Notes under the pieces: model-generated
What the model was told of the DNA's origin: nothing
Seen by the model: only the letters and a program-made list of their open reading frames with translations
Database searches by the model: none
Translations under genes and position numbers: made by a program
Shown here: positions 3,101-64,000 of the stretch, piece by piece
Layout of the letters: each line of letters opens with the position of its first letter
Numbering within the stretch: position 1 is the stretch's first letter
Assembly: GCA_033816765.1 (NCBI GenBank)
Contig: CM066289.1
Coordinates: 1 to 64,000 of the forward strand
Direction of reading: 5' to 3'
DNA: 64,000 nucleotides
From: Nothopassalora personata
Taxonomy: Eukaryota; Ascomycota; Dothideomycetes; Mycosphaerellales; Mycosphaerellaceae

Positions 3101-4405
3101 TTAAGTCTACGCCGCTCGCTAGCTTAATGTGTAAAGCCTTAACCGGCTACGAGGTAATATACAATTTATTACTCGGTAAATAGTACTTCTCTTTCTACGT
3201 TAACTAGTTTAGTACTAGTATACTCGGTAGCTTTACTATACTAGATAATACTCTCTAAACGCTTATCGACTTAATAGGCCTAAGATATTATCTACTACTA
3301 TAGTCTTAGCGTACTTGTAGCCGTCCTTACTTGCTTAGAGTCTATATACTAGTATGTACGGTTAAATTACGCGTAGTATACTACGAGGAGCTGTTCCTTG
3401 TTACTTTAGGCTTACTTTTTATTAATGCTATCTACTAGAATAACCTAACTGCTCCGTAATAGCGAGTCGGACTTACGACTTTCTAATGCCTAGTAGTAAG
3501 ATTAACATTATACCTTTTAAATATTATAATACCGGCTATACGCCCTTTATAGTCTACCTATAGTCCGTACTACCGATCTCTACCGCCGTAATAGCCGGGT
3601 ATATACGTAATCTCAATTAGCGCTATACACTACTCGTACGGATACGGTATTACGGTTTAGCGGCCCCTATACTTTACGATTATAGCTACGCTACACTAAT
3701 AGAGGCGAATCACTACTACGTTCTCCCGCTACGATCGCGCGACTATACTTTACTACCTTTCCGTTCTACTACTAGTTCTCATTATAGACTAAATGCTAAT
3801 ACTCTCTATAAAAGATCTTTACCCGATGTTATTATGTCTACTAGCGCTTTATCGTCTACTACGAACGTTATTCTAATATATAATAATTACTAATCTTAAT
3901 TGAAATTGATAGATGTTATTAACTTAAGCCTTTACTAAGTAACATTAAGCGCGTCGTCGGTGTGTAAAGTTAGCGTACGATTAGCGCTCTTACTTCGAAG
4001 GGTAGCCGTAGCTTCCGATTATAAACGCCGTTACGAATGTTATAGAGCCGTATCTATCGATTACAGTCGCGCTAATTAGCTACCATTATAATTATACAAT
4101 AAGCGCTACTAACGTAGTTATCGATAAGTCCTAGATAACGAGCTCTACTAGTATACTTCTCCTAGCTACATCCTCGCGTAAAACGAAGGATAAAGTACAC
4201 TAGTTACGACCTCGGAATTAGATCTCTACTACGAGAACGTTGCCTAAACGCTTAACGCCTAGGTCTTACCTAACTCCCATTCTCTAACTTTATATCTTAC
4301 TAGACTCCCGCCCTCGGAGTAGGCTAACATAAATTAACATTTCTTTATAGGCGTATTCGAAGTATACCGAAAGATAGTCTACTCTAGAGGGACACTATTA
4401 GAGGA
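191..4405. other. RIP-degraded telomere-proximal DNA, no identifiable gene
   Basis: No open frame of useful length. CpA and TpG are almost absent while CpG is kept (positions 241-300: ten TpA, six CpG, no CpA or TpG). Several stretches, for instance 1500-2500 and 3060-3870 on the plus strand, read as protein-like runs interrupted mainly by TAG/TAA where Gln would fit, which suggests one or more old coding sequences destroyed by RIP. The minus strand of 3100-3300 looks equally plausible, so neither strand nor family can be assigned. A telomere-linked helicase is the usual resident here in fungi, but I found no helicase motif. Confidence 0.6.
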
Positions 4406-4670
4406 TATCGTAATATATAGCACGCCTACGACCTTATAGTCGTAGATAAACTAAATCTTGCCTTCTTCTATAGACGCCTTACGCGTCGCTTTATATATGT
4501 ATACACGTTACGTACGGCTTACTAAGCCGTGCCTAGCTATATATTATACATAAGGGTTAGCTATAGGCTAACCTTATAACTACCTCTCTTCTAGTACGAG
4601 CTACTCTTAGCTCGCGGCTTTAGGAGGTTTCTATATAGTAGCTCTATCTACTTCTCGCTAGTTCTAGTAC
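4406..4670 (-). mobile_element. 3' LTR and internal tail of a truncated minus-strand Ty3/Gypsy copy
   Basis: 4406-4578 matches the LTR at 58686-58871 in the same orientation, base for base apart from RIP-type changes (it starts TATCGTAATATATAGCACG against TGTCGCAATGTATAGCACG). 4579-4670 matches the polypurine tract and internal sequence just inside that LTR (58872 onward). The copy is cut at 4670, where the LTR of the plus-strand copy begins. The two LTRs therefore face each other as inverted repeats separated by 92 bp. Confidence 0.85.
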
Positions 4671-17959: not shown

Positions 17960-18800
17960 CCCTATTCTACTCTTACTATAGTACTACGGTTATAGTAGCG
18001 GCGGCGGAGGCGGGGGTAGTAGTAGCGGAGGCGCTAGTAAAGCGTACGTAGGTCTTACCTATACGCTTATTCTTATAGGCATTATACTACCTCTTATTCT
18101 AGGAGGAGGTTAGTTAATTTATATAAGGAGCGATAGTACGCCGTACGTACGTAGTACTTATACCTAAGATCTACTTATCTAGCTAGGTATATAGGCGGTA
18201 CTACTCGTCTAGGGCGTCCCATTCCTCCTAGGTAGAAGGATCGCTAAGCTCGCGGATAAGCTTATCGCACTAGGCGCAAGCGGCGCGTAGGCAAGCTACT
18301 AGCTACGCGATAGTAATACTAGTATTACTAACGTACGAGTACCTACTTATCCTATATCGTCCGTACTTCTTAAGTAGCTCGCCGGTAGTAATACTATTAT
18401 ACGTATCTAGCTCGTCTACTATACGGTTAGTAAGCGTATCGTAAGCAATAAGCGTAGTAAATACTTACTAGTTACGAAGTATAGGAGATAACGTAAGTAT
18501 ATCTTAATATCTATACCTAGGCGCTGAGCTAGTAATAACTTAGGGGTCTACGGGCCTAGTACGCTAAACTTACGCTTTACTAACGTATCGGGTACGCCGA
18601 GCGCGCTAGACATCTATAGTAGTGCTAGTAACAGTATTAGTAGTACTAAGATGCCGCCTATAAGGGCCTCTTAGCGTAGTTAATCTTAAATAGCTTCTTC
18701 CAAAGCTATAGTAGTACTAGCGGGTCGCTAGATAGTCTCTAGTAAGGAGCTAGTAGATTACTAGTAGTACGGGTATAGTACGCTACGAGAACGTAGTATA
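17960..18800 (-). pseudogene. RIPed antisense Cys-rich gene of the outer element
   Basis: On the minus strand, between pol and the 3' LTR, this is the RIPed counterpart of the intact gene at 59173-59943. Exon 2 is readable at about 18150-18440: TTGELLKK is kept, and the second cysteine cluster C-x2-C-x6-C reads Y-x2-Y-x6-Y (GRY and SYV around it). The exon 3 counterpart, with a GC-rich Ala/Gly-coding run, lies at about 18000-18100. The helical part differs from the intact copy well beyond RIP changes, so the two elements are distinct subfamilies that both kept this gene. Ends are approximate. Confidence 0.78.
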
Positions 18801-51534: not shown

Positions 51535-54500
51535 ATGTCTTCTACTAATAAGACTACCTCTAACTATCTTAATAGCTACTTTAAAGAGAATAGACCTCGT
51601 ACTATAAACGACTTTAAGAATAGTAATTTAGTAACTCCTAATAAGACTACTAAATTAGAAGATACTATTAAGGTCTATAATTTAGATTTAGGTATTTTAT
51701 TTTGCTCTAATTGTTCTATTAATCTTAATAGTATTAACTATATTAAACATCTTCGTAAAAAGCATAATAGCCTATATAATACTTATAAGAGTAATAATAC
51801 TTTAGAGCATTTAGTAAATAGGGTTAATTCTATAACCTTATCTACCTTAGAAGAGCTAGAGACTAAATTAAAAGACAATACTTATCTATTTAAAGAGTTA
51901 GATATTACTTTAGGTAACTTTAAATGTCTAGAGTGTTGTTATACTAGTATTAATAGGAAAGATATTAGAATTTATTTTAATAGAAAACATAATAGTAATA
52001 GAGAAACTACTAATATAAAAGCATCTTATATTATAGAGAATATTCCTTTACAAGTTCTAGAATGCTTTAAATATAATACTCAACTATATCTTATACCTAA
52101 ATTACCTAATTTAGATATAGTAGAGAGTACTTCTAATCTCAATTTAGAAGAAAGCTCTACTACTAGATCTAGAAGTATAAGATCTAGAACTAGAAGAAGA
52201 GACTCTTCTACCTCTAATTCTAATAGTAATAATAGTATAGAAGAGTTAGGAGATATTACTCCTACTTTAAAGAAGACTATTCTTAATAATTATAAAGAAG
52301 ATCTTACAATAGAAGATAATACTATTAATATAGACAGTAATACTAAACTACTAAATACCTTTATAAAGAAGTCTAATATACTTACTTATTTAGAGGGAAA
52401 AAATCGAGAATATCTAATAGAGATAGACTATAGTAATACAGAGCCTACTACTAATATAATAGAATCTAATATAGTTGATCTAGATCTATCTAACTTGGAG
52501 GATCTAGTTCTAGAATACCTAAAGGAAATTAGTACTAAAATAAAGGGTACGCCTTTAACTATAAGACAAAGACTTAAAAGTAGTAATTATAATCCTAATA
52601 TTAAAGAATTTAGTGATTTTATTGCTTTAGAAAATAATACTACAAAGAATACTTACTTTAAAGTATTTTTACAATTATTTATATTTACCTTAAAGGTATT
52701 CTTCTATATATTAAGTAGATTTAATAATAGTAGAGATAAAGCAGAGAAAGAATACTATAACCTAGTAGAGGATATAACTATTAGTCCTACTTTAAAACAT
52801 CTTCTAATAGAAGTTATGAGTTACGACTATACTACTTTAAATATAGACGAAAATAAAATAGACCTATTCTATTTATTTAGTAGAGTCTTTAGAGAACTAC
52901 TTAAGATTAAGAACATTAGTAAAGTTAGTAAAGATACTACTCTTAATAATATAGTTATAGTCTTCTACTATATTAGAAGTCTAGATAAATATACTAAAGA
53001 AATTATAGATCTATCTCTAATAGGAAAACTTAATAGTATTATTCTCTATAATAGTAGAGTAGTAACTCTAGGCTATTATTATTATAAAGAGACTAAAGAA
53101 GAAGAAGAAGAGATAGAAGAAAACGAAGAAGAAGATAACTTATTAATAGAAGATTTTATACTTAGTTATTTAACTAATATTAGTTTAAATTACTTCGGCT
53201 TTATAAGTACTATAGCTCCTTATCTATTAAGACTTAACAAGGAGATAGTAACTACTAAAGGATTAATAGGAGAAACAAAACAAGATATTATAACTTATAA
53301 CTTTATAGAGTATCCTATCTCTAAGTTAAAGGTATTATTTAATAATATTTATATTAAATCAGAAGAGATACTATTAGAAGAGCTCTTAGGACTTAATAGC
53401 TTAGACGATCTTACGCTAGATTTTAATTTAGTAAATGATAATAGTCTAATAAATAGAGTTAACTCTAGGTTATTAGATATAGAAGAACTTAAGAAATTTA
53501 AAGAGGAACCTTACTTCTTAATAGAGACTCTAAAGAAGAATAGTTATTATAATAGAAAGTTCTTTAAGGGTATAAAAGATAATAAAATAGTATTTTAGAA
53601 TACGGCTATAGAGAGATTTAATACTAACATTAATAACTTTATACTATATCTAGCTCTAGTTATTTATCTATTTAGTGGAGGGCCTCTAAGAAGTACCGAA
53701 CTTACTACTATTCTATTTAAGAATATAGATACTAAATCTAGAAGCTTACTATATAATAAAGAAGAAGGAATGTTTACTATAATTACCGATTATTATCAAA
53801 GTAAGAATATTACTAGAAAAGAAAACACTAATATAAGGTACTTACCTCCTAAACTCAGTAAACTATTAGTTATTTATATACTTTATATTATTCCCTTTGA
53901 GGAGTATATTAGTAAGAACTATTTTCATCTAGAAGAGGCTACAACCCCTTATTTACTAGTTAGAGATACTAAAATACTTAATACCTTTATTTGAAGTAGT
54001 ACCCTAGAGCGCGAATCTAGCTTATTATTTAGAAGAGGTCTTACTATTAGTAGCTATAGAAAGATTATAAACTATATTATTAAAACTAAATTTAATAACT
54101 ATAACTATTATAGTAGTAGTAATAATAAAGAAGAGAATCTAATAGAAGATATACAAGCTAATAGAAGTACTAAAGTATCTTATAATTACTATTTTAATAT
54201 AGGTTTTAATCTAGGGAGTAATAATACTTTAGATCTTTCAACTAAAATAAAGGAATTTACTATTAATTACTTCTTATACTTTAACCTATTAGAAGATAGC
54301 TATATTAAAACTAATACGACTATATCTCGATTAGTAAAGAAAACTAAAATAGAAGACTATAGTATACCTAGTAATTTAGATATTAATATTAGTAGTAAAA
54401 GTCTAGAAGATAATATTAAACTATTATATAAGGACTCTAATAAGAGATTCTATAATAACGAGCAAAAATTAGGTCTAATAGAAATAGTTAATAATACGCC

Positions 54501-56120: not shown

Positions 56121-58685
56121 AGAGTTCTATAAATGGAAATCTTATATATACCAACGTACTCCTAAACGAAAGTTACGGAACGTTTGCCCTTATCGATAAA
56201 GGATGTATATGCTACGCTATAATTAACGGAGACCTAGCGAAAGGCCTCGGTCTTACGTATGTTAGTAACGAGAGCCGCAAGGCTATAGGGTTTACGAAGG
56301 CGATACGGAACTCGATCGAAGGAGTAGTCGCCTTCCGTATAGAAACTACCGGGATCTACTAGGTAGTTTATGCTTACGTCGTGCCTAATCTAGACTTCCC
56401 TATAATCCTAGGGAACCCGTAGAAGGCGTATAACTAGATCCAGACTACGCCTAAAAAGCGCCGGTACTACTATAGCTTAGTAAAGAAATAGGTACCCGAA
56501 GGACGTAACTACGAAGAACACGAATCGGGTGAGCGTTTCGCTACGATTGCCGCGGCGACCGTAGAAGATATTAAGAAAGCCCTTAGTAAGAAGGAGCCGC
56601 CTACACGGGAGGAACTTAAGAAGGGCTTACCTCTAGAACTTTAGGATATGTTACTGCTATTTTCTACTAGGGAAGCTAATAAGCTAGCTCCGCACCGCGG
56701 CGACCTTAACTATAAGATCGAGATACGGACGAAAGCCGACGGAAGCCCGGAACCATTGCCCTAGGGACCGCTCTATAGCATGTCTAAAGACGAGCTACTT
56801 GTCCTCCGGAAGTTACTAACGGAACTATAGCGTAAGGGTTATATTCGCCCTTCCACCTTAGAAGCGGCGGCTCCCGTCTTGTTCGTAAGGAAGCCCGGGG
56901 GAGGACTTAGGTTCTACTATAATTATAGAGTATTGAACTCGATTACTAAGTAGGACCGTTATCCGCTACTGTTAATCCCGGAAACTATTCGGAACCTAAC
57001 GGGCGCTAGATAGATCACGAAGGTTAACGTTATTACCGCATTTTACTACCTTCGGATAGCTCGAGGCGAAGAGTATAAGACGGCTTTTCGAACTAGATTC
57101 GGTCTATAGGAGTAGCTAGTATGTCCGTTCGGTTTATCCGGGGCCCCTATAACATTCTAGCGGTACATTAACAGTTTGTTACGGGACTACCTAGACGACT
57201 TTGCCTCGGCCTACGCTAACGACGTCGTTATTTACTCCGACGGAACAAAAAAGGACTATTTCTAGAAGGTTCGCATCGTGCTCTAGAAGCTTTAGGACGG
57301 AGGCCTTTTCCTAGATCTAGGGAAGTATAAGTTTATATAGAAGAAGGTTAAGTACCTCGGGTTTATTATATATACCGACGGGATAGGAGTAGGACCCGAC
57401 CCCGAGAAGGTGGCAGTAGTAAAGGACTAGAAGGCACTAGTTACCTAGAAGGAAGTACGGCGTTTCTTAGGCTTCGCGAACTACCACCGGATGTTTATTC
57501 TAAACTATTCGAAGCTCGCCGAGCCCTTAACGTCGCTAACCGGTAAGAACAAGATGTTTTCCTAGGGAGATCGTTAGGCCAATGCGTTTAAGTCCCTAAA
57601 GGATAAGTACTATAAAGCACTAGTTTTAGCCTACTAGAACCCGGAGCTCCCTACCTTTTTAGAGACGGACTATAGGGGCTTTACGCTTAGAGGCGCCCTC
57701 CTATAAGAAAAGGACGGAGTCGTAAAACCAGTAGGATTCTACTCGAAGAAGCTTAATAAGGCTAAGATTAACTACGACATTTACGATAAGGAGATGCTCG
57801 CGGTAGTGTCCTATCTTAAAGAATAGGCTCCCGAGTTAAAAACATGTAGGCCCTTTATAATCTAGACGGACTATAAGAACCTAGAATACTTTATAACGAA
57901 GAGACAGCTTTCCGAACGGCAGATCCGGTAGGTTAAGGAAGTTACAAAATTCTAGTTTTTACTAGTATATAGGCCGGGCACCGAGGCGATTATACCGGAC
58001 GCCCTTTCTCGAAGGGAGTAGGATACACTTAGGTAGGACGACAAGTTATTACGGTATCGCAGGTTTCTTAAACCGGACATCGTAAAGAATTAGCCGGGCT
58101 CGAAGGTAGTAGACGTTAGCTCGACTATAAAGGTTTCGTTAGTACGAATCTTAGCTACGTAGTTCGAAGGACTATCCGCTATAGAAGAGGCGGATTTACC
58201 GGGCGTACTATAGGGACCCTTCTAAGACTAAGAGCTAAACGACCTCTAGGAAAGAACTATCGAGAAGGATAGCACATTCTAAGCGGTACACCGCGCGATT
58301 AAGGTAGGAGCGCGTTCACTTCCTAGCGAGGTGAAACTTAAGGTGTAAGTAGGTAACTATAGCATCGACCGTAACGGGTATCTTCGCTACCGCGGTAGGA
58401 TTTAGGTACCTAGAGCTCCTAGTTCTACGGAGTCCGACTATAAGGAGGCGGACATAGCGATTCTATAGAACGATACCCTTCGAACTAAGCTAATCTAATC
58501 CGTACACGATTCACCGGTATACGGCTACCCTAGCCGGGACTCTATAGCATCGATACTAAGTCGTAACTTCTACTAGCCCCTATAGTCTAAGCACGTAAGG
58601 CAGTTCTTACGGAACTATAACTACTACGGTAGGAATAAGGTGTGGAGAGAATAAAAACACGGCCTCCTACAACCTGTTAAGGGGA
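56121..58685 (+). pseudogene. RIPed pol of the 54632 element
   Basis: Reverse transcriptase is readable at about 56890-57260 ([27 protein letters not shown]; catalytic YANDVVIYSD at 57212-57241, where YxDD has lost its first Asp). RNase H ETDYRGF is at about 57660. The integrase HHCC zinc finger is at about 58505-58650, with the Cys pair read as YNYYGRNK, followed by KHGLLQP. The integrase catalytic core is missing because of the insertion at 58686. Stops are mostly TAG at Gln positions. Confidence 0.85.
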
Positions 58686-58871
58686 TGTCGCAATGTATAG
58701 CACGCCCACGACCTGCCAGTCGTAGATGAACTAATTCTTGCCTTTTGTTCAAGACGCATCGCGCGTCGCAAGGTGTACTCATGCGTGTCACGTGCGGCTT
58801 GGCAGCCGGTCGCGACCGCATGTCACATGCAAGGCCACATGTAGGGGTTAGCCACTGGGCTGCCCCTTACA
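58686..58871 (-). repeat. 3' LTR of the young element
   Basis: 186 bp. In sense orientation it begins TGTAAGGGGCAGCCC and ends CATTGCGACA. The edges are confirmed by alignment with LTRs 4406-4578, 4671-4848 and 19023-19193, all of which end at the same bases. Confidence 0.88.
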
Positions 58872-58890
58872 ATTGCCTCCCCTCCCGTGC
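58872..58890 (-). other. Polypurine tract
   Basis: In sense orientation a purine run GGGAGGGGAGG followed by CAAT directly precedes the 3' LTR, the expected plus-strand primer. The RIPed copy keeps AGAAGGGGAGG at the same place. Confidence 0.7.
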
Positions 58891-59044: not shown

Positions 59045-59051
59045 CATAAAA
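59045..59051 (+). promoter_or_regulatory. TATA-like box of the antisense gene
   Basis: CATAAAA about 122 bp before the ATG at 59173, in a pyrimidine/CA-rich leader. It lies inside the element but outside the LTR, so the antisense gene seems to have its own promoter. Upstream ATGs at 59013 and 59022 precede this box. Confidence 0.45.
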
Positions 59052-59172: not shown

Positions 59173-59943
59173 ATGTCGGCCGTGCCCTCCTCGCCGCCAT
59201 TCTCTGGCCGCTCCGCCTCCTCCAGCAGCACCAGCAGCGACAGCACCACCAGCGCCGCAGAAGACGAGCGCCGCCAGGCGGCTCTGGTGCGCGACGCACC
59301 CAGAACGCCTGGTGGTCGCAAGCGACCAGCATCACCCTCGCAGCCACCAACGCCCTCGCCAGCCACCAAGCTCTCGCAGAGAATCAACATGTGCATGCGG
59401 TGCCTCCCGTACTTCGTCAGGGGTAAGTCTCCACGCGCGTCGCCTGCGATTCGCATGCTAACCACTTGCTAGACGAGGCCGATGACTGTGATAGTGTCAC
59501 CACCGGCGAGCTCCTGAAGAAGTGTGGCCGCTGCAGGCGCAGCAAACACAGCTGCGTGCCCAACACCAGCCACGCCATCGCCTCGCTGGTGAGCCGCCTG
59601 CGCGCCGCGCGGTCCCAGCGCGACTTCCTCACGGCCATGATGGGCCAGGCGCCCACAGACCTCCAGCAGCAGGAGCTGGTGGAGCAGATCCGCCTGTGTG
59701 CCCAGCTGGGCAACGACATCAAGGAGGTAAGTCGCTGCTTCGCTCGTGCGAGTCGACTGCTACTCGCGGGGGAGGGCTCTAGTGCGTCCCCTGTGCTTCG
59801 GCTGACCCTTCCTATAGGCCATCAGGCAGTTCAATGCCTACAAGCACAAGCGTGCCGGGGAGACCCGCATGCGTGCCTCCGCCGCCGCCGCCACCACTGC
59901 CGACCAGGCATTCTTGCCTGAGTCACTGCGTGACGACAACTGA
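59173..59943 (+). CDS. Antisense accessory gene: six-cysteine/coiled-coil protein, three exons
   Basis: Join 59173-59422, 59473-59726, 59818-59943; 209 residues. Intron 1 (50 bp) has GTAAGT, branch GCTAAC and TAG; intron 2 (91 bp) has GTAAGT, branch GCTGAC and TAG. Both splices keep the frame and remove stops or unlike sequence. Residues 1-70 are a Ser/Pro/Thr/Ala-rich tail. The cysteines form C74-x2-C77-x11-C89-x11-C101-x2-C104-x6-C111, with a basic RCRRSKH segment that recalls the first half of a fungal Zn2Cys6 finger. Residues 118-180 are Leu/Arg/Gln/Glu-rich and likely helical. It ends with an Ala run. It faces pol, with 135 bp between the two stops. A RIPed homologue sits at the same site in the element at 4671-19193, so it is part of the element, not a host gene. 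Function unknown; nucleic-acid binding or control of the element are guesses. Confidence 0.82.
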
Positions 59944-60077
59944 GGCGCTCGCCTCACACGCTGCTCGCGGGCTCCTCGCCTGCTACCACTCTGCGTGGCC
60001 CCTGGTGGGCGCGCCACTCTTCAGCTTTTGTTTTGTTTATAGTTGAGAAAGGTTTTGTTTGTGCTCCAGTGCCAGTC
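59944..60077. other. Convergent 3' region between antisense gene and pol
   Basis: 135 bp between the stop of the antisense gene and the stop of pol. T-rich on the plus strand (TTTTGTTTTGTTTATAG near 60026), probably holding poly(A) signals for one or both transcripts. The transcripts are likely to overlap here. Confidence 0.45.
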
Positions 60078-63000
60078 TCATTTGCTTCTCCTTGACGCCT
60101 CATAGTCGGCTACCATGCGATCCGCATTCGCGAGGCCCTCCGCCGGTTCCCAGCTGTTGTACTCCTCTGGCCAGTCCTTCCACTGGACTAGATACTGCAG
60201 CTTGCCCTTGCGCTTACGCCTATCCAGCACTGCCTCTACCTCATACTCTCCGTCCTCATTAGCTAGAGGGGGTACGGGTCCATCCTCATCGCTACCGATA
60301 TACGGCTCGAGGAGAGAGACATGGAAGACGTTGTGGAGCCTTGAGTCGGCTGGTAGCGCTAGGCGGTACGCCTGCGAACCGACAGCGTCCGTAATGCGGT
60401 ATGGGCCGATGAACTTCGGACCCATCTTCTTCTTTGGCACTGCCAACTTGAGGTTCTTCGTTGACAACAGGACTAAGTCACCTACGCGGTAGGTCTTGGC
60501 TTGGTGGGTCTTGTTGTAGTAGCGAGCCTGGCTTTCTGCTGCAGCCTTCCATCGCTCCTCGAGTGTAGCGCGTAGTTTTCGCATGCGACTCGCAGCTGTT
60601 ACCGCTGCTGGTACTTCCCCCCCCTGGGTCTCGTCTCGAGATCCAGTTGGTGCAGGGGCAATCTCAGGTCGCCAACCGTGCGCTATTTCGAACGGACTCA
60701 TCCGCAGTGTTGGGTGGATGCTGTTATTAGCTGCGAATTCAGCAACTGCAAGCCACTCAGCCCACTCAGTTTGATTGTCACTGCAGTAACAACGAAGGTA
60801 TTGTTCGAGGGTTTGGTTTGCCCTCTCAGTTTGGCCGTCAGTCTGAGGGTGAAAGGCCGTGGATAGCTTGCGCTTCACACGCGCCTCGAAGCAGAAGTCA
60901 CTCCAAAACTGACTAGTGAAGACCGGACCTCGGTCGCTCACTATGCCTGACGGGACACCATAGTGTCGCACGACTTCGTCTCGCAGGAGCCTCGCAAGCT
61001 CCACGGCTGTGCAAGTCTTCGTCGTCGGGATGTACAAGCTCATTTTTGAGTAGCGATCGACTATCACTAGGATCGCATCATACACGCAACCGGCTCGCGT
61101 GCTTGGAGGTAGGTCCGTAATGAAATCCATGGTGATTTCCTGCCACGGTCGCTCCGGTCTAGGAAGCGGTTGCAGCTCGCCGTAGGGTCGATGGCGCCTC
61201 GCCTTCGAACCCTGGCAGGTTCTGCAGGCTTGGACGTATTGTTTCACGTCCGTGCTAAGTGAGTCCCACCAATAATTACGTCGCAACAGCTCTTCAGTCT
61301 TGGTCCTTCCAAAGTGACCCGCGAGGACGTCGTCGTGGTGCATGCGAATCAGATGCGACCTGATTGCGTGATCCCTGGGTACCACGATCGCGTCTCCGCA
61401 GTACACAAGGTCATCCTTCACATGCCATCCCTTGGCGTCCCTCGCGCTTGGCGCCTGCGCCAAGCATGCGACACACTGGTCGTCTTGCTGCTGCGCGATC
61501 TTCATCAAGAGTGGGATCAACTCACCCGTCGAGCTGTAAGCTTGACCCTGTATCACTGCAGCGCACACTGCTGCTGGTAAAGACGGCTTGTCTTGATGGG
61601 GAAGGTCACCTCTCCGCATTGCCATCGCCGCGCCTATGTCGCCCTGCATCGCCTCGCAGGTGGCAAGCACGCGCTTCACCGTCGGCTCGCTTGTCCCTTC
61701 CAGAGACTCCTTCCAGAAAGACAGCTTACTTTGCAAGGTAGGCAGCAAGTTCGAAGTTTGTTGCGTTATGGCTGCGTAGTCACTGCGTCTCGAAGGCGCG
61801 TCGGCTGGGTTAGTCTTACCCGGCCGATGCTCCACTACAAAATCAAAAGACTGCAGGAACGTAGCCCATCGAGCTTGCCGCCCATTCAGCTGCTTTACTG
61901 TCATGAAGCCCTGTAGGTTAGCGTGGTCGACTAGCACTCGCACCGCATGCGTAGCGCCCTCCAAGTATGGCCTCCAATGCTTGAAAGCCTCAACCACTGC
62001 AAGTAGCTCCTGATCGTGCGTCTCGTAGTTGCACTCAGCTGGTATCATCTTGCGTGAATAGAACGCGATGGGATGCCACTCAGCACCAAACAATTGGGAT
62101 ATGATACCTGCGATCGCGAAACCTGAGGCATCCGTCTCGACTCGCGTGCGCAGCGCAGGATCGAAGTGCCTAAGTATTGGTGCACCTAAGAATCCGGCCT
62201 TAAGCTGTCGAAACGCCTGCTCTTCGCTTAAGGTCCACGTGAGAGGGCCGTGCTTCTTGCCGTCCTTGGATCCCTTTAGCAGGTCCGTTAGGGGCTTGCA
62301 GACCCTTGAGTATCCTTCTATAAAACGCCGGTAGAAGTTGCAAAACCCAAGGAAGGACTGGACCTCATGAAAGGTCGTAGGTGTAGGCCATTCCTCGATA
62401 GCGGCTACCCTGCTCCTGTCCATCGACACGCCTGCGGCGCTCACGACAAACCCAAGGAACTCTGCACTCTCCTGGAAGAAGTGACACTTCTTAGGGTTTG
62501 CGAACAGGGCAAACTTTCGTAGCCTCTCCAGCACCGCGCGTACGGCTCGCACGTGTGCCTCACGCGTCTCGCTGTAGATGAGGATATCATCTAGGTAGAC
62601 CACGCAAATGTCATCAACTAAGCCGGTCAGCGCCTTGTTGATATACCCTTGAAAGGTTGCCGGTGCGTTGGTTAACCCGAACGGCATCACCAGGTACTCG
62701 TAGTGTCCGTATCGCGTGCGAAACGCAGTCTTCCACTCATCGCCTCGCTTAATAGGGATACGATGGTAGGCGTCCTTCAAATCGATTGTAGTGAAGAACC
62801 TGGAACCTGATAGCCTATCTAGCGTCTCGCTGATTAGGGGCAGGGGGTATCGGTTCTTCACTGTAATCTCATTCAGGCCTCTGTAATCAACACAGAGCCT
62901 AAGAGTGCCATTCTTCTTTGGCACGAACAGGATAGGCGCACCCGCCTCGCTTGCGGACCGCCTAATCCACCCCTTCTCCATTGCTTGCGCAAGGTACTCC

Positions 63001-63836
63001 TTCAAGGCCTCCAACTCAGTCAAGGACTGGTGGTACAGCGGCTTGAAAGGGGGTTTCTTTCCTTCAACGAGATCAATCGCATGCTCAACCCCGTCGGGCA
63101 TCTTGCGCTTCGCCTGCTCATTAGGTGCGTATACATCTCGGAAGTCTGCAAATTCTTCAGGCCACGAGGGGCCCTCTCCTTCAGGTACTGCTGCAGCAAT
63201 AGCCCGAACACTCATCGCATAAACCTGCTTTGAGCTCTCGAGATCCTCAAGGAACTCGCGTGCGTCACGCTGCTGAACCGCAGGCGTCTCTGCACCGTAG
63301 TACCACTGGTCATCCTTATCGGCCTTCACTATCCGATTACGATGCCGCCAGGGTCTACCCAAAATCACTGATGGCCTACCCATAGGCACCGCGTAGCAGA
63401 TGGCGTCACTCACGCGCTCTACTCCCGCGTCATCAGCGAGTCGCAGCCGAACCGCAAAGGCGCCGTAGCAATACCCTGGATCATGCGCATACGACTCTAA
63501 CTTCGGCAGCCTTGCCCCATCAATGGGTTGCATTTGATGTCGGAGTACATACTCATACGACACTAGGCTGAGATCCGCACAGTCATCCAGGAGAAACGTG
63601 GCCTCGCGAAAGCCCTCACGAGTCTCGACTGCGCCTCGCAAGTGACGCGCTGGACACGCATCCACTCGCCTCAAGGGGTCGACTTCAGGAAAACTCGGAC
63701 TCAGGAGCGACCCACTTATGGTCCTCTGCCTTTTCCCTGGTCGCTGCGATGGACACACATCCACTCGCCTCAAGGGGTCGACTTCAGGAAAACTCGGACT
63801 CAGGAGCGACCCACTTATGGTCCTCTGCCTTTTCCC
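60078..63836 (-). CDS. pol: Pol polyprotein: protease, RT, RNase H, integrase, chromodomain
   Basis: Intact frame of about 1250 codons after the frameshift site, ending TGA at 60078. It has no ATG start near its beginning: an in-frame TGA lies just upstream of the site, so entry must be by -1 slippage from gag. Counting from 63773: protease box LLDDCADL at 61-68; RT about 235-455 with YLDD near 385; RNase H about 535-650 (ETDASGF, then LVDHANL); integrase HHCC about 800-850, and DDE residues in MDFITDLP, SDRGPVF and HPQTDGQTER; GPKFIGPYR (GPY/F) near 1115; C-terminal chromodomain about 1170-1225 (EYEVEAVLDRR, then YLVQWKDW, then NSWEP), which directs insertion to modified chromatin. It copies the element's RNA into DNA and inserts it. 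Odd points: Cys replaces Gly in the protease triplet, and a 33-residue stretch is duplicated at the start. Confidence 0.95.
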   Translation of the reverse strand, partial: GKRQRTISGSLLSPSFPEVDPLRRVDVCPSQRPGKRQRTISGSLLSPSFPEVDPLRRVDACPARHLRGAVETREGFREATFLLDDCADLSLVSYEYVLRHQMQPIDGARLPKLESYAHDPGYCYGAFAVRLRLADDAGVERVSDAICYAVPMGRPSVILGRPWRHRNRIVKADKDDQWYYGAETPAVQQRDAREFLEDLESSKQVYAMSVRAIAAAVPEGEGPSWPEEFADFRDVYAPNEQAKRKMPDGVEHAIDLVEGKKPPFKPLYHQSLTELEALKEYLAQAMEKGWIRRSASEAGAPILFVPKKNGTLRLCVDYRGLNEITVKNRYPLPLISETLDRLSGSRFFTTIDLKDAYHRIPIKRGDEWKTAFRTRYGHYEYLVMPFGLTNAPATFQGYINKALTGLVDDICVVYLDDILIYSETREAHVRAVRAVLERLRKFALFANPKKCHFFQESAEFLGFVVSAAGVSMDRSRVAAIEEWPTPTTFHEVQSFLGFCNFYRRFIEGYSRVCKPLTDLLKGSKDGKKHGPLTWTLSEEQAFRQLKAGFLGAPILRHFDPALRTRVETDASGFAIAGIISQLFGAEWHPIAFYSRKMIPAECNYETHDQELLAVVEAFKHWRPYLEGATHAVRVLVDHANLQGFMTVKQLNGRQARWATFLQSFDFVVEHRPGKTNPADAPSRRSDYAAITQQTSNLLPTLQSKLSFWKESLEGTSEPTVKRVLATCEAMQGDIGAAMAMRRGDLPHQDKPSLPAAVCAAVIQGQAYSSTGELIPLLMKIAQQQDDQCVACLAQAPSARDAKGWHVKDDLVYCGDAIVVPRDHAIRSHLIRMHHDDVLAGHFGRTKTEELLRRNYWWDSLSTDVKQYVQACRTCQGSKARRHRPYGELQPLPRPERPWQEITMDFITDLPPSTRAGCVYDAILVIVDRYSKMSLYIPTTKTCTAVELARLLRDEVVRHYGVPSGIVSDRGPVFTSQFWSDFCFEARVKRKLSTAFHPQTDGQTERANQTLEQYLRCYCSDNQTEWAEWLAVAEFAANNSIHPTLRMSPFEIAHGWRPEIAPAPTGSRDETQGGEVPAAVTAASRMRKLRATLEERWKAAAESQARYYNKTHQAKTYRVGDLVLLSTKNLKLAVPKKKMGPKFIGPYRITDAVGSQAYRLALPADSRLHNVFHVSLLEPYIGSDEDGPVPPLANEDGEYEVEAVLDRRKRKGKLQYLVQWKDWPEEYNSWEPAEGLANADRMVADYEASRRSK
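63579..63587 (-). other. Variant protease active-site triplet Asp-Asp-Cys
   Basis: Aspartic proteases of retroelements use Asp-Ser/Thr-Gly. Here the codons read GAT GAC TGT. The RIPed relative has Asp-Asn-Gly at 13641-13649, so Gly is probably ancestral and TGT arose by one transversion from GGT. Confidence 0.75.
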
Positions 63837-63846
63837 TGGTCGCTGC
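63649..63846 (-). repeat. 99-bp tandem duplication at the gag/pol junction
   Basis: Two nearly identical 99-bp units, 63649-63747 and 63748-63846 (for example TCCACTCGCCTCAAGGGG at 63661 and again at 63760). The length is a multiple of three, so Pol gains 33 residues without a frameshift. Each unit contains the GGGAAAA heptamer and the gag stop triplet. The RIPed relative has a single unit (13496 onward). Confidence 0.93.
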
Positions 63847-64000
63847 CCTTCTCAGTCAGAGCCTTCGCAGCGTCTACCCTGCGAACCGCTTGCGCGCCAC
63901 GGTCCTTCCACAGGTGCCTGTTCGGGCAATCCGTCTTAATGTGACCCTTCTTATGGCATCCATAGCACTCCGCTTTGGTCCTATCAAAGGTCACAGACGA
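63815..64000 (-). CDS. gag: Gag polyprotein, C-terminal end (partial)
   Basis: The last 62 codons including the stop; it continues beyond the right edge. The nucleocapsid zinc knuckle C-x2-C-x4-H-x4-C is intact at 63926-63967 (CYGCHKKGHIKTDC), followed by a basic tail (NRHLWKDRGAQAVRR) and TAA at 63815-63817. It binds and packages element RNA. The RIPed copy of the same knuckle is at 5894-5935. Confidence 0.92.
   Translation of the reverse strand, partial: SSVTFDRTKAECYGCHKKGHIKTDCPNRHLWKDRGAQAVRRVDAAKALTEKGSDQGKGRGP
63830..63836 (-). promoter_or_regulatory. -1 ribosomal frameshift heptamer GGGAAAA
   Basis: In the gag frame the bases are split G GGA AAA, the X XXY YYZ form needed for -1 slippage, four codons before the gag TAA. 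Slipping one base back gives GGG AAA AGG, which is exactly the pol frame (the codon beginning at 63830 is in register with the stop at 60078). The pol frame is closed by TGA a few codons upstream, so this short overlap is the only entry. A second copy at 63731-63737 lies past the gag stop and should be silent. Confidence 0.8.

Follow-up and report, generated by a model that had tools for sequence, protein, structure and literature searches.

A probable spliced accessory gene lying antisense between pol and the 3' LTR of a Ty3/Gypsy chromovirus in Nothopassalora personata

Antisense genes additional to gag and pol have been described in LTR retrotransposons, and their function was stated as not known in a review of 2020 (PMC7264820). 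A candidate of this kind lies in the first 64,000 nucleotides of contig CM066289.1 of Nothopassalora personata (assembly GCA_033816765.1), the stretch of DNA analyzed here and called the window. At positions 59173-59943 an earlier note, made from the letters of the sequence, had drawn a frame with introns of its own inside a Ty3/Gypsy element and on the strand opposite to it. This raises the questions of whether the frame is a gene at all, whether it belongs to the element or merely travels with it, how introns can persist in a retrotransposon and what the product might do. The locus is a tractable case in which to ask them: its near-identical copies are numerous, long and short versions of the gene occur naturally, and the cysteines and introns are defined.

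The antisense gene and its carrier

The observation in the window was confirmed: a three-exon frame of 209 residues with clean splice and branch sites runs opposite to the element, as the earlier note had described. Exon 1 (59173-59422, plus strand) encodes a Ser/Pro-rich N-terminus, a basic stretch GGRKRP and the first CX2C, and is followed by intron 1 (59423-59472, plus strand), which measures 50 bp and reads GTAAGT...TGCTAAC...TAG. Exon 2 (59473-59726, plus strand) contributes four of the six cysteines of a cluster (C89 and those of CGRCRRSKHSC) as well as predicted helices, and intron 2 (59727-59817, plus strand; 91 bp, GTAAGT...CTGAC...TATAG) separates it from exon 3 of what is called below the short form (59818-59943, plus strand), read as a fusion of ancestral exons 3 and 4. 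Joined, the three exons comprise 630 nt, that is 209 codons and a TGA. Both introns share the donor GTAAGT and the acceptor TAG, TGCTAAC and CTGAC being their respective branch-like sites. The TATA-like box likewise attributed to the gene is present as CATAAA at 59045-59050 (plus strand), 128 bp upstream of the ATG, and represents a putative antisense promoter; a 25-base stretch including it was found in 58 of 62 collected loci, many of which overlap.

The carrier is a 6,526-bp element (58675-65200, minus strand), and the accessory gene, on the plus strand, sits between its pol and its polypurine tract and 3' LTR, antisense to gag-pol. The order RT-RNase H-integrase, a C-terminal chromodomain, LTRs and a short target duplication identify it as a Ty3/Gypsy chromovirus. 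Its 3' LTR (58675-58871, minus strand; 197 bp, TG...CA) and 5' LTR (65004-65200, minus strand; 197 bp) are 100% identical, and a target-site duplication CAACC flanks the element at both ends. The polypurine tract (58872-58886, minus strand; sense GGGAGGGGAGGCAAT), which was recognised by eye, adjoins the 3' LTR. Pol (60078-63773, minus strand) comprises RT, RNase H, integrase, SH3_Tf2-1 and a chromodomain, and the gag frame (63818-64996, minus strand) reaches into the window with its 3' part (63818-64000). At the gag-pol junction a 99-bp tandem repeat (63647-63846, minus strand) is present as two units in the window copy; its number varies from two to six among otherwise near-identical copies (L032-L058 and the window), and in most copies every unit lengthens the pol frame by 33 residues. 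Directly after the 5' LTR, towards the interior of the element (next to 65004), the sense strand of copy L031 reads GTTCTAATTCTTC..., and no usual tRNA primer site was recognised there by eye. Self-priming is known from Tf1, and a Tf1-like self-priming of the element may be considered, as a thought only.

Relatives of pol were numerous in the protein database, with 7,975 at E<=1e-20. Among the 120 listed, the highest RT-RNase H identity (78%) was that of an unnamed protein, the named fungal relatives with full coverage were led by Elsinoe fawcettii (73%), with Venturia nashicola and Dothideomycetes sp. NU459 next (67%), and the lowest E-value belonged to a Lithobates record with 49% identity. 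Taken by themselves, these relatives make a filamentous ascomycete the probable host. In viral contigs no pol relative was confirmed, and none of 35 pattern-matching stretches encoded one.

Copies in the genome and a second family

Searching the own genome (54.5 Mb, 40 contigs) with the accessory gene yielded at least 201 matches, 150 of 1,093 candidates having been scored. Twenty-four near-identical young copies were fetched, the 3' LTR of each being 100% identical to the window LTR over 197 bp. Both LTRs are complete in nine fetched copies, the two LTRs of each pair being identical, and with the LTR trimmed to 197 bp eight of these nine, all except L043, display perfect 5-bp target duplications. 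Of the 24 young copies, 23 have an open accessory frame, 22 of them in the short form and one, L049, in the long form; in the remaining copy, L053, codon 35 is a stop. An undivided pol frame that unites RT and chromodomain is present in 17 copies of this sample, and a full gag frame in 15. Some of the breaks in pol and gag are single inserted bases which recur between copies (60617, 64323) and are due either to shared descent or to assembly error, the two being indistinguishable; when counted per base, preservation of the accessory gene does not clearly exceed that of pol. L057 and L058, young copies that do not belong to the 24, have a broken accessory gene.

From the own-genome matches 122 accessory loci were typed, rows that merely showed a different exon or fragment of a copy already counted being omitted. 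A chromodomain lies within 3 kb of 87 of them among the matches listed, and all 87 pairs are convergent, which is more than chance; the remaining 35 have no chromodomain partner among the matches listed (150 of 1,607 chromodomain candidates). Of the 27 stop-free chromodomain matches listed from these 150 candidates, 26 adjoin a copy of the gene, broken copies included. The gene shows, in other words, the orientation opposite to gag-pol and, among the matches listed, the presence in most copies of the family by which additional open reading frames (aORFs) of such elements are recognised. The one exception, at C5:4244123 (L062, C5:4244500-4246200), has an open pol frame and no accessory gene. 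In this copy the match to the element ends at about 60014, and GC-rich DNA, read by eye as host-like, replaces the gene, polypurine tract and LTR for 1.55 kb.

Several rearranged or partial copies were observed besides. Locus L056 (C7:2931500-2937500) contains two partial copies in inverted orientation, both of which retain the 3' LTR together with the gene through exon 2. A deletion of about 63-66 bp between accessory gene and pol (approximately 59948-60012) is common to the young copies L042, L043 and L058, which suggests because of this shared loss that the three form a sub-lineage. LTR matches of 100% at C5:253181, C5:463849 and C4:2687658, with no partner LTR an element length away among the matches listed (40 of 893 candidates scored), are candidate young solo LTRs.

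The earlier note had also reported an older relative mutated by RIP at about 17960-18800 and had concluded that the gene was inherited with the element, and both statements were borne out. The copy in question (17960-18800, minus strand) lies downstream of a pol on the plus strand that ends at about 17440, in convergent orientation, and is followed by an LTR remnant with a weak, collinear match to the live LTR (E 0.001 and 0.004); place and orientation are those of the live element. It represents a second, diverged and RIP-mutated family (family B, the family of the live element being family A). A DNA search with this copy gave at least 40 matches including itself (509 candidates), and the others listed are 79 to 89% identical to it. 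Two family B sequences were read, the window copy and L063. Both have kept the position of intron 1 with its GTAAGT donor, a CTAA(C/T) branch-like site and TAG acceptor, and the position of intron 2 with its TAG acceptor; the donor of intron 2 is GTAAGT in L063 and GTATAAGT in the window copy. The position of a third intron, described below, is kept in the window copy, L063 ending before it. The six cluster cysteines and C159 can be traced in both copies as TGY or as the RIP product TAY (Tyr), and no alignment between the families was obtained for the 5' half of exon 1. RIP-like damage is also seen in L061, which differs from L049 by 170 C-to-T or G-to-A changes, 12 differences of the reverse type and 21 transversions, a pattern that fits repeat-induced point mutation as expected. 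A RIP-tolerant amino-acid match between the families covered 117 of 161 codons, and 96 of 142 in the second copy, against shuffled-pairing means of 26 and 22; it was rejected as coding evidence, because homologous DNA would score in whichever frame it was read, and was taken to indicate homology only.

Splicing, constraint and the protein

Indirect evidence for splicing comes from a difference in length between copies. Additional exon 3 sequence is present in the un-RIPed copies L057 (C6) and L049 (C13), the only long-form matches of at least 99% among 40 scored of 261 candidates, and also in the RIPed copies L059, L060, L061 and the window copy at 17960-18800. In L057 and L049 this long form has an exon 3 of 165 bp, a 59-bp intron 3 (GTGAGT...TGCTAAC...CCTGCAG) and an exon 4 of 69 bp. 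It is open in L049, with 245 residues and the same C-terminal residues, ADQAFLPESLRDDN, as the short form, and broken in L057 by a one-base deletion in exon 2. Since the older RIPed copies carry it, the long form is likely the ancestor of the short one. The short form is without 167 bp, equal to 108 coding nt plus the 59 bp of intron 3, and its C-terminus stays in frame; as 167 is the sum of these two, the reading frame survives only when intron 3 is spliced out. This deletion gives good, though indirect, support to splicing and translation, the strongest in this analysis, with the caveat that a random deletion keeps the frame about one time in three. No spliced (processed) genomic copies were seen among the candidates scored (40 of 245 and 40 of 218), and with a query of exons 1 and 2 the copies aligned with the intron as a gap, or exon by exon. 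The locus C3:1060745, considered as a partly intronless copy, was rejected, its 93-bp deletion over exon 1, intron 1 and exon 2 lying off the splice sites.

Between families A and B, transversions, which are not produced by RIP, numbered in the accessory gene 28, 22 and 38 at codon positions 1, 2 and 3 (161 each; P 0.034), and 28 of 143, 21 of 142 and 37 of 142 with the second family B copy (P 0.040), which is not independent of the first. The same comparison gave 55, 41 and 130 of about 986 each in pol, which is far more constrained than the accessory gene; with 22 of 161 transversions at position 2, against 41 of 987 in pol, the accessory gene has diverged faster between the families. Its introns (24 of 172; second copy 29 of 138) are similar to its exons (88 of 483; 86 of 427) and not higher. 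Within family A the numbers, at 3, 6 and 6 for L060 and 2, 3 and 6 for L061 at positions 1, 2 and 3, are too small to judge by. The earlier note had proposed a dN/dS test across copies. Among the 23 short-form young copies three polymorphisms are common to at least two copies and all of these are synonymous (P 0.019, the test having been chosen post hoc), whereas of all 8 polymorphic sites 4 are synonymous, where about 27% would be expected (P 0.14), and the other four, non-synonymous or nonsense, are not clearly below neutral. Selection on the accessory gene is suggested, but weak.

The short-form protein has a mass of 22.7 kDa, a pI of 9.5 and seven cysteines (74, 77, 89, 101, 104, 111 and 159), the first six forming the cluster. 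These six had been described as regularly spaced; their number held, whereas their spacing, CX2C-X11-C-X11-C-X2-C-X6-C, is not strictly regular. An AlphaFold model of exon 2 alone, with a pLDDT of 60, predicts helices after the cluster. The Zn2Cys6 cluster (Gal4-type, PF00172), which binds two zinc ions, has the spacing CX2CX6CX5-12CX2CX6-8C. CGRCRRSKHSC resembles one half of this motif, basic residues are likewise present and helices follow, whereas the other half here is CX2CX11C instead of CX2CX6C; the cluster departs from Zn2Cys6 spacing, and PF00172 gave no match up to E 10. The search for homologues of the 209-residue protein, which the earlier note had recommended, brought no match in the protein databases at E<=10: neither the short form nor, subsequently, residues 64-236 of the long form had a relative among 5.8 billion proteins (sources including ncbi, nr and uniref) in a search that requires shared 5-residue words. 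No Pfam family matched the accessory protein above cut-off, matches to Rpn3_C, UL92 and Ribosomal_60s lying below it and being taken as chance. In the PDB the short-form query had no match, and a tetracycline repressor found with the core query (E 1.6) was dismissed as being at chance level.

Possible function and known systems compared

On this evidence the locus very likely holds an accessory gene of the retrotransposon that is spliced and codes for a protein. Taken as a whole, a protein-coding antisense aORF with a regulatory product is the best explanation, at a little better than even probability, while its mechanistic part, a regulatory zinc-cluster protein, falls slightly below even. 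Established here are the anatomy of the gene and its conservation; beyond these, an RNA would initiate near CATAAA at 59045, run towards pol and be spliced, and would give rise to a basic 22.7-kDa protein with a probably disordered N-terminus, a probable zinc cluster of six cysteines and a helical C-terminal part. This protein would enter the nucleus and act in trans on the transcription, silencing or integration of its own element, presumably through the binding of nucleic acid or chromatin. The antisense placement would let the introns outlast retrotransposition, because the genomic RNA holds their complement, which the spliceosome cannot read, and this points to a simple cause for the antisense position of such a gene, as introns so placed cannot be spliced from genomic RNA. 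Pairing of the antisense transcript with the genomic RNA is conceivable as well, so that the protein and RNA routes may both be at work. A more far-reaching proposal, which we regard as doubtful, is that of an element-encoded, zinc-cluster-like nuclear regulator unrelated to known families, its introns kept via antisense placement, which was conserved through at least two families in a fungus with RIP and of which a version shorter by 36 residues recently took over the young copies (23 of 24), perhaps altering control.

If the antisense transcript itself were the active agent, it would form double-stranded RNA with the 3' end of the genomic RNA, small RNAs would limit or tune the element and the protein would be secondary. 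The layout suits this idea, in that a full-length sense RNA crosses the complement of the whole gene before the 3' LTR, and the same has been proposed for plant elements (PMC7264820). However, an RNA acting alone leaves unexplained a deletion that preserves the frame only once splicing has taken place, as well as traceable cysteine codons and shared polymorphisms that are all synonymous, and we hold it to be improbable. A captured host gene travelling as a passenger, transduced once and multiplied by an element to which it is of little or no use, would agree with a base composition unlike that of pol (GC 0.67 and GC3 0.83, against 0.56 and 0.62), with introns of spliceosomal type and with divergence faster than that of pol, and transduction is discussed in PMC7264820. 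Against such a passenger stand its occurrence in two families, no fewer than 40 matches being listed for either, and its open state in 23 of 24 young copies, so that it appears rather unlikely. No host homologue appeared among the own-genome matches listed (150 of 1,093 candidates scored), a list filled by element copies in which one could have been missed. GC-rich sequence yields long chance frames, and other frames on both strands overlap the locus; yet a chance frame opposite an untranslated 3' region would hardly have introns with proper signals at positions kept in two families, nor a frame kept after splicing, and is very improbable.

The kind of gene to which the favoured coding interpretation assigns the locus is already known from Botrytis and from plants, the protein itself being without match in searchable sequences. 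The remark of the earlier note that it knew of no named fungal system of this kind did not hold, as brtn, an antisense additional gene of Boty-like elements in Botrytis cinerea, is a named precedent (PMC8365987, PMC7264820, PMC4227169, PMC5987419). Its original description is credited by citing papers to Zhao et al. (2011, Virology 417:248-252), and a review places it in the group of antisense frames that separate pol from the 3' LTR (PMC7264820). The likeness, drawn by description and not by sequence, consists in a fungal LTR element with gag-pol, a chromodomain and an extra antisense gene (PMC4227169). In Monilinia, a transcript that resembles Boty pol and BRTN has been reported (PMC5987419). 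No further fungal antisense element gene appeared in the titles and abstract openings searched, and neither 'antisense' nor 'Boty' occurs in the text of a survey of fungal LTR elements (PMC3248453). Antisense RNAs from transposons are described in Blumeria (PMC10648671).

Among plant Gypsy elements, antisense aORFs are described as Grande gene23, RIRE2, Retand ORF4 (TRP28) and PvRetro13; position, orientation and presence in most copies are shared with the gene studied here, and they have been suggested to act in the nucleus or as regulators (PMC7264820, PMC11963269). Unlike these, the present gene has a six-cysteine cluster, at least two introns and a fungal chromovirus as its carrier, whereas Retand belongs to a non-chromovirus lineage (PMC11963269). 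The accessory protein had no Pfam match above cut-off to TRP28 (PF04195) or SMC domains, TRP28 being absent up to E 10. HBZ of HTLV-1 is spliced, and a regulator of its type contains a bZIP domain, for which the accessory protein gave no match up to E 10; no sequence relation between the two is known. HBZ is likewise an antisense retroelement gene with a nuclear product (PMC11963269), and the antisense promoter of HTLV lies inside the 3' LTR (PMC7264820), whereas the candidate promoter here is placed between the LTR and the ATG.

Two further features were seen elsewhere in the window. A frame of 687 residues with a sub-threshold match to OrsD occupies AT-rich DNA at 51535-53598 (plus strand), and positions 4400-4489 match part of the live LTR (58680-58769) at 80%, probably as an old LTR remnant.
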